Assembly: GCA_021738485.1 (NCBI GenBank)
Contig: JAIPBX010000001.1
Coordinates: forward strand, 68,702-110,599
Length of the DNA stretch: 41,898 bases
Source of the DNA: Bacteroidales bacterium
Lineage (GTDB): Bacteria; Bacteroidota; Bacteroidia; Bacteroidales; JAIPAH01
Direction: 5' to 3'
The notes below the pieces were generated by a model. It ran no database searches and was not told the origin of the DNA. It saw nothing but the letters and a program-made list of their open reading frames with translations. The position numbers and the translations under genes are program-made. Of this stretch, positions 41,726 to 41,898 are shown piece by piece. Position 1 is the stretch's first letter; the number at the start of each line of letters is the position of its first letter.

Positions 41726-41820
41726 TGTGGAGAATATCGGGCTCGAATGCCGTCCGCTATGCGGACGAGCACCCTCGAAAAACTTCGCAAATCTGAGATT
41801 TGCGGTTTTTCGGGGCCGAT
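41726..41820 (-). pseudogene. tRNA-Ala(GGC)-like 3' fragment with a 68-nt insert in the T arm
   Basis: On the minus strand, GGCAGTCAGGAGGTCATCGG (ending at 41816) reads like an anticodon loop (ATGGCAG, GGC), 3' anticodon stem (TCAGG), variable loop (AGGTC) and T stem (ATCGG). After 68 nt (41748-41815) the sequence resumes with TTCGAGC-CCGAT-ATTCTCC-ACA, an exact T loop, T stem, acceptor strand and end. The insert holds two hairpins. The 5' half of a tRNA is not convincingly present, so this is a remnant, not a working tRNA. Confidence 0.5.
41751..41815. repeat. Palindromic insert in the tRNA-like fragment
   Basis: Contains GTCCGC-TAT-GCGGAC (41752-41766) and a long hairpin CGAAAAAC..CGCAAATCT (41775-41793) / AGATTTGCG-GTTTTTCG (41795-41812). 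These inverted repeats occupy nearly all of the 68-nt insert. It looks like a small hairpin-forming interspersed element. Confidence 0.6.
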
Positions 41821-41898
41821 GACCTCCTGACTGCCATTCGCCCAGTTAATCAAAATATCTCCAAAGTAAAATCTTGAAATCATGCCTGACAATAAACC

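Follow-up and report, generated by a model that had tools for sequence, protein, structure and literature searches.

A tRNA-Ala half-copy interrupted by a double hairpin in a Bacteroidales genome, and similar half-copies and small GIY-YIG genes at tRNA loci of Bacteroidota

In E. coli, the tRNA gene tyrT is followed by distal tandem repeats that contain the 3' end of the tRNA. To our knowledge, these repeats have no double hairpin in the T loop and include no 5' pieces. Paired inverted hairpins that are interspersed are typical of REP/BIME elements, which are found with RAYT transposases. A 3' tRNA fragment that adjoins an intact gene is the usual mark of tRNA-targeting integration. In mitochondria, double-hairpin elements are said to have been described in work on Allomyces. 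According to the accessible part of one report, mitochondrial DNA contains double-hairpin and repetitive hairpin-forming elements that are short, look mobile and have variable stems (PMC2800124). SegB of the phages T4 and T6 is, in the available excerpts of two accounts, a free-standing GIY-YIG homing endonuclease that is encoded in the tRNA region (PMC13096335; PMC2988022), in T4 between tRNA genes (PMC2988022). The excerpts of one of them state that SegB cuts within tRNA genes, at a motif, RAWTSGAAC, that represents the T loop on the other strand, and that it drives tandem amplification of the tRNA segment (PMC13096335).

We analyzed a stretch of DNA of 41,898 nt (hereafter the window) from a Bacteroidales genome, G000, with an assembly completeness of 78%. 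The window is the end of contig C26, which ends at position 41898. Within its last 170 bases, the minus strand carries a tRNA-Ala(GGC) 3' half, which is split by a 68 nt insert (41815-41748, minus strand) at the edge between T stem and T loop, G53|T54. Read on this strand, GGCAGTCAGGAGGTCATCGG (41835-41816) is followed by the 68 nt and then by TTCGAGCCCGATATTCTCCAC (41747-41727), and without the 68 nt the sequence reads ATCGG-TTCGAGC-CCGAT, followed by the acceptor strand. The first-pass annotation of this DNA had claimed that a 3' tRNA half is interrupted exactly at this edge and that deletion of 41748-41815 restores a perfect T arm and an acceptor strand, and the minus-strand reading bore out both claims. 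The part on the 5' side of the insert (41816-41836, minus strand) comprises the anticodon region, the variable loop and the 5' strand of the T stem, TGGCAGTCAGGAGGTCATCGG; the part on the 3' side (41727-41747, minus strand) comprises the T loop, the 3' strand of the T stem and the 3' strand of the acceptor. Both are identical to an intact tRNA-Ala(GGC) gene of a sister species (G001, L064, positions 1231-1305).

The insert does consist of two strong palindromes, as had been noticed initially. Folded as DNA, it forms two hairpins with z = -8.95, and none of 200 shuffles was equally good; a region of 115 nt folded as RNA gave z = -5.57. Hairpin a (41772-41815, minus strand, 44 nt) has a CCC foot, CG, a long stem with an internal loop, CG, a bulged A, and GGG, and hairpin b (41748-41771, minus strand, 24 nt) has a TGC foot, a bulged T, CGTCCGC-ATA-GCGGACG, and GCA. 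The two hairpins abut without a spacer and are built alike, from a foot of three bases, one bulged base, and a longer stem. Downstream of the half-copy, where a terminator-like hairpin had been postulated, an inverted repeat followed by a T run was read by eye (41711-41680, minus strand); it was not listed by the inverted-repeat scan because its loop exceeds the limit of the scan. On the opposite side, the sequence from 41837 to the contig end at 41898 did not yield a match. ARAGORN did not call a tRNA in the window, neither with nor without the insert, so the tRNA-finder comparison that had been suggested did not recover a gene; the 5' half is absent, which accounts for this result. An intact tRNA-Ala of the same genome was not seen in the 78%-complete assembly. 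Within this genome, the whole 68 nt insert is unique, and its hairpin core recurs on contig C101, adjoining two tRNA-Leu genes; the earlier suspicion of a repeated element thus holds for the core and not for the insert as a whole.

The identity of the half-copy as tRNA-Ala(GGC) follows from the sister species G001, a Bacteroidales MAG (contig JAIPAH010000148.1), in which the 3' half of the intact tRNA-Ala matches the window flanks on both sides of the insert. An intact gene that shares these flanks thus exists, as the first-pass annotation had presumed. The region is collinear with the window, with about 86% identity up to the half-copy. In G001, a 5' half-copy whose D loop holds a double hairpin lies in front of the intact gene, and about 15 nt behind this gene follows a 3' half-copy that carries the orthologous double hairpin of the window in its T loop; on the side on which the window runs into the contig end, the sister species thus has a short spacer and the intact tRNA-Ala. 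A comparison of the orthologous inserts by eye gave three differences, all at positions that are unpaired in the fold. A second orthologous locus revealed turnover. In G000, the intact tRNA-Gly gene of this locus is accompanied by one D-loop piece and two T-loop pieces. At the same locus of G001, with flanks that are 89% identical, the D-side half is joined via three hairpins to the T-side half, and the intact gene is gone. The simplest reading is that recombination between the flanking hairpins deleted the gene.

Partial tRNA copies turned out to be widespread in the order. tRNA loci were sampled from seven genomes; for G000, 30 of the 39 listed places plus L002 were used, and for the other six genomes the loci were taken from among the matches listed. 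When distinct tRNAs with a copy of the same tRNA within 700 bp on the same strand were counted, 43 of the 144 tRNAs examined in five genomes had partial copies of themselves (11/37 in G000, 9/29 in G001, 12/29 in G040, 10/28 in G067, and 1/21 in G052). Of two control genomes, G060 was essentially negative (1/29) and G003 was positive (8/37) due to a Val array. Opposite-strand partial copies were found for none of the 210 tRNAs of the seven genomes. In the five genomes, the intact gene has 5' pieces on its upstream side and 3' pieces on its downstream side, with few exceptions: L021, where a second Lys gene is cut by the contig end, and L045, with two neighboring Leu genes. In the controls, the exceptions were L161 of G060, at a contig start, and L181 of G003, an array with pieces on both sides. 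Because the partial copies include leader or terminator sequence of the respective locus, they represent tandem duplications of their own locus and no imports; tandem duplication of a tRNA segment is also a property of SegB-type units.

Several arrays go beyond single half-copies. At the tRNA-Met gene of L030 (1576-2115; G000, C66), the T arm and acceptor end are repeated in tandem in about nine copies of 60 bp, most of which have the palindrome TCCGCC..GGCGGA. At L016 (G000, C141), tRNA-Asn is followed by four 124-bp repeats and then a GIY-YIG gene, and each repeat comprises an almost complete copy of tRNA-Asn in which a hairpin precedes the anticodon region. In the Val pseudo-copy array of G003 (L181/L222, C3), a palindrome forms the anticodon arm, and some pseudo-copies were called tRNA-??? 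or tRNA-Phe(aaa) by ARAGORN. At L045 of G040 (C147, about 1849-2019), two intact tRNA-Leu genes enclose a tRNA-Leu(GAG) copy that is full-length and carries the double hairpin in its D loop. Two pairs of contigs were 100% identical between G000 and G040, which belong to different families: L029 on C106 and L134 on C125 over 1160 nt, and L275 on C113 and L272 on C14 over 3345 nt. This points to cross-binning in one of the two assemblies. The Arg locus on C106/C125 was thus counted twice for the partial copies, the GIY-YIG matches, the insert placement, and the palindrome and strand checks, and once for the statistics on GIY-YIG neighbors.

The layout of the pieces bears on the proposal of the first-pass annotation that the window feature may be an attachment-site scar, left at a tRNA gene by an element that encodes an integrase. 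A 3' tRNA fragment close to an intact gene is indeed the trace that such integration usually leaves. However, an attachment site comprises an uninterrupted tRNA end, and here the 3' end is broken inside the T arm. The pieces occur on both sides of one gene, together with the leader or terminator of that gene, their distance from it ranges from tens to hundreds of bp, the interruption is within a loop, and between the copies only GIY-YIG frames were recognized. We regard a scar as very improbable and prefer local duplication of the neighboring gene as the origin of the pieces.

To locate the inserts, each piece was aligned to its own intact tRNA, leaving out the G003 copies. An insert could be placed in 55 of 80 pieces, and 25 remained without placement. 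In 5' pieces, the double hairpins were located in the D arm, and in 3' pieces at G53|T54. In the D arm, they follow position 15 (15/16) in Val, Asn, Gly and Ala, lie at 18/19 in Leu and at 19/20 in Ala of G052 and G067, and occur once, in Glu, in the 3' strand of the D stem. The G53/T54 site is used in 3' pieces of Ala, Gly, Val and His, in a few of which the first loop T is either ambiguous or missing. The earlier idea of a repeated hairpin element with tRNA T arms as its target was thus close to what is seen in these half-copies and too narrow for the family, which also occupies D arms. Removal of the cleanly placed double hairpins, including that of the window, gives back the tRNA sequence without loss, gain or target duplication. 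Single palindromes were found elsewhere, e.g. at 21/22 and 56/57 in Arg-CCT, and often take the place of the anticodon arm. In a strict test, 63 of 79 pieces had an inverted repeat that is absent from the intact gene; because the test was also positive for 72/210 intact tRNAs, due to their own stems, it is meaningful only relative to the intact gene. Most of the other 16 pieces have a palindrome by eye, and the Thr piece of L033 has none.

Twenty elements from five genomes were chosen for folding, 19 as placed by alignment. The T-loop insert of the G001 Ala copy, which has three changes, was misplaced by the automatic alignment and was cut by hand. The second Gly copy of L019, His of L153, further Leu copies and Ala of L069 were outside this set. 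All 20 fold as two abutting top-level hairpins, with stems that differ widely in sequence and length within a total of 49-92 nt. The conserved part is the linker between the stems, e.g. CGAGGGTCCTCG, CGAGGGTGCTCG or CGAGCATCCTCG. In two adjacent hairpins, variable stems and several copies, all 20 resemble the mitochondrial elements as far as these are characterized in the accessible part of the report (PMC2800124). In contrast to those, they reside in a bacterial chromosome, in the loops of tRNA half-copies beside an intact gene; the likeness concerns the manner of working alone, and we do not claim membership.

Searches with hairpin patterns gave few matches. The exact double-hairpin pattern matched only G000, G001 and G040 among 393 genomes of the order, which indicates that a strict pattern undercounts the family. 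With a looser D-loop pattern, 13 of 247 genomes of the phylum were matched, and half-copies upstream of a tRNA were found, besides G000, only in G485 (one) and G630 (two of three matches); the remaining matches are at loci without a tRNA and look like chance. In a collection of named genomes, one contig was matched, that of the sister species, and two matches in viral contigs were, by eye, both in unrelated sequence without a tRNA. Rfam covariance models applied to nine loci gave only tRNA matches and one match below threshold.

Could the hairpin half-copies be functional RNAs, i.e. leader or trailer RNAs of the tRNA transcript that serve processing or regulation? The half-copies are on the tRNA strand, the form of the stems is conserved while their sequences vary, and the three differences between the orthologous double hairpins of the two species spare the paired positions. 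On the other hand, half-copies are found at some tRNAs and are absent at most, arm and palindrome differ between neighbors, no Rfam family was matched, and the tRNA-Gly locus of the sister species kept the hairpins and lost the intact gene. We thus judge a role as functional RNA to be quite improbable.

A more serious alternative is that the palindromes are independent mobile elements (MITE or REP-like) that are moved by another enzyme and prefer the loops of hairpin-forming DNA. Partial tRNA copies would then arise by slippage, and only insertions into redundant copies would survive selection. This would explain without a nuclease why inserts are in D arms upstream and in T arms downstream, since the D arm is invariably part of a 5' piece and the T arm part of a 3' piece. 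It would also fit single palindromes of several sequences at the same arms, and the similar double or triple hairpins outside tRNA genes that were observed in G040 (L073, L076, L087, L090, L093-L095), in intergenic AACTTGGAA-like repeats. However, nearly every partial copy has a palindrome (the 63/79 of the strict test and most of the others by eye), such that duplication and insertion look coupled. A Y1 transposase was rejected as the mobilizer: copies flanking a Y1 transposase gene, as expected of REP/RAYT or IS200/IS605 elements, were not found, and the linker motif of the double hairpins was present at 0/20 Y1 loci. The elements share the paired hairpins with REP/BIME, and differ in their location in tRNA loops and in lacking a link to a Y1 gene. 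Independent palindromes also leave the linkage to GIY-YIG genes unexplained. On balance, we consider them an unlikely, though by no means negligible, explanation.

This linkage was observed at several loci, where an open reading frame with a GIY-YIG domain lies between the intact gene and the half-copy. Four proteins tested scored 52-66 bits with Pfam PF01541, and the nearest solved chain was UPF0213 BH0048 (E = 0.012); a different protein family for the ORF at L143 was ruled out by the GIY-YIG match there. The tRNA-linked proteins have about 82-100 aa. Among the matches in six genomes, 28 small GIY-YIG genes were counted, 27 of them distinct, and 15 of these 27 are within about 1 kb of a tRNA (binomial p ~5e-18, against a rough background). 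At all 14 loci examined (13 distinct), the ORF is on the tRNA strand. The distance to the tRNA is 24-79 nt, except for one gene at 548 nt, which lies behind the Asn repeats of G000. Partial copies were present for 9 of 11 tRNAs with a GIY-YIG neighbor versus 33 of 132 others (p = 3e-4; inputs tallied by hand, and Pro of G067 and Val of G003 omitted as tRNAs outside the counted set). In an independent sample of 61 genomes of the phylum, 7 of 29 GIY-YIG loci (the best per genome, among the matches listed) had a tRNA within 1 kb, and 22 had none. All seven tRNA-linked loci have the gene on the same strand and partial copies, with palindromes in most: pieces of Lys, Val, Asp, Pro and Ser with arm palindromes, and an Asn piece with a short insert. 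No GIY-YIG gene was visible at most double-hairpin loci, nor at the window locus, which the contig end truncates; there, inspection by eye of the 83 nt that lie upstream of the insert and reach to the contig end gave no GIY-YIG-like reading.

Our preferred reading, to which we assign a probability of about 45%, is that the window feature, a displaced 3' half-copy of tRNA-Ala(GGC) with a double hairpin, belongs to a family that invades tRNA genes in Bacteroidota, and that it would be a compact relative or relic of SegB-like GIY-YIG homing-type units that heal the gene by partial duplication. A SegB-type GIY-YIG nuclease would break the tRNA gene in an arm or loop, and repair would double one half of the gene together with its flank, such that an intact tRNA survives. 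The palindrome would stay in the displaced half, where it would destroy the cutting site. A unit composed of the tRNA 3' part, terminator, gene, arm piece and palindrome, entering a tRNA arm, would yield an intact tRNA and the gene, with the 3' half displaced to a position behind the palindrome, and mirror-image entry would give the 5' form. Gene-less units, e.g. the window copy, would be compact relatives or relics that are acted on in trans. We infer the mobility of the double-hairpin/GIY-YIG units and the action of a nuclease on this basis, and the nuclease step is well motivated by the analogy to SegB.

This analogy has two sides. SegB and the loci of the relatives have in common a GIY-YIG gene beside tRNA genes, and the tandem amplification of a tRNA segment has its counterpart in the tandem half-copies described here. 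In contrast, SegB is a phage gene and the present loci are chromosomal, half-tRNA copies with double hairpins are not described for SegB in the available excerpts (PMC13096335; PMC2988022), and the proteins of about 82-100 aa are only putative nucleases, whereas cutting is reported for SegB in these excerpts. The SegB motif RAWTSGAAC fits exactly two of five T arms checked, with Ala not among them, and is silent on D loops. The surviving tRNA would keep the supposed cutting site, which leaves classical homing immunity unexplained. Partial copies at 33/132 tRNAs without a GIY-YIG neighbor, the hairpins outside tRNA genes in G040, and the 22/29 GIY-YIG loci of the phylum sample without a tRNA within 1 kb also count against the nuclease model, as do the failure to see a GIY-YIG gene at the window and at most double-hairpin loci, and to see the intact Ala gene of G000. 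The E. coli tyrT repeats share the position downstream of a tRNA gene, the tandem arrangement and the tRNA 3' end with the pieces found here; as far as we know, double hairpins and 5' pieces are confined to the latter.

In a wider sense, the GIY-YIG units and gene-less double-hairpin satellites may form a class of self-healing selfish DNA in Bacteroidota chromosomes, which would enter tRNA genes at the D, anticodon or T arm, make the gene whole again by means of a half that is either carried along or duplicated, and leave the palindrome behind in the half that is displaced. We offer this wider proposal tentatively and would not be surprised to see it fail. There is a real chance that the tRNA-linked double-hairpin units are a class distinct from the known kinds, i.e. 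tRNA-linked GIY-YIG homing genes and double-hairpin elements. A literature search, which covered few subscription journals, found no published description of such tRNA half-copies with hairpins. If the proposal is true, the SegB principle would extend from phages to bacterial chromosomes across a phylum. It would account for clusters of half tRNA genes that are skipped or mis-called by tRNA finders, and the mitochondrial double-hairpin elements would have an equivalent in bacteria, together with a candidate enzyme. The loci would also be a simple system in which to test how invading DNA is tolerated by essential genes.
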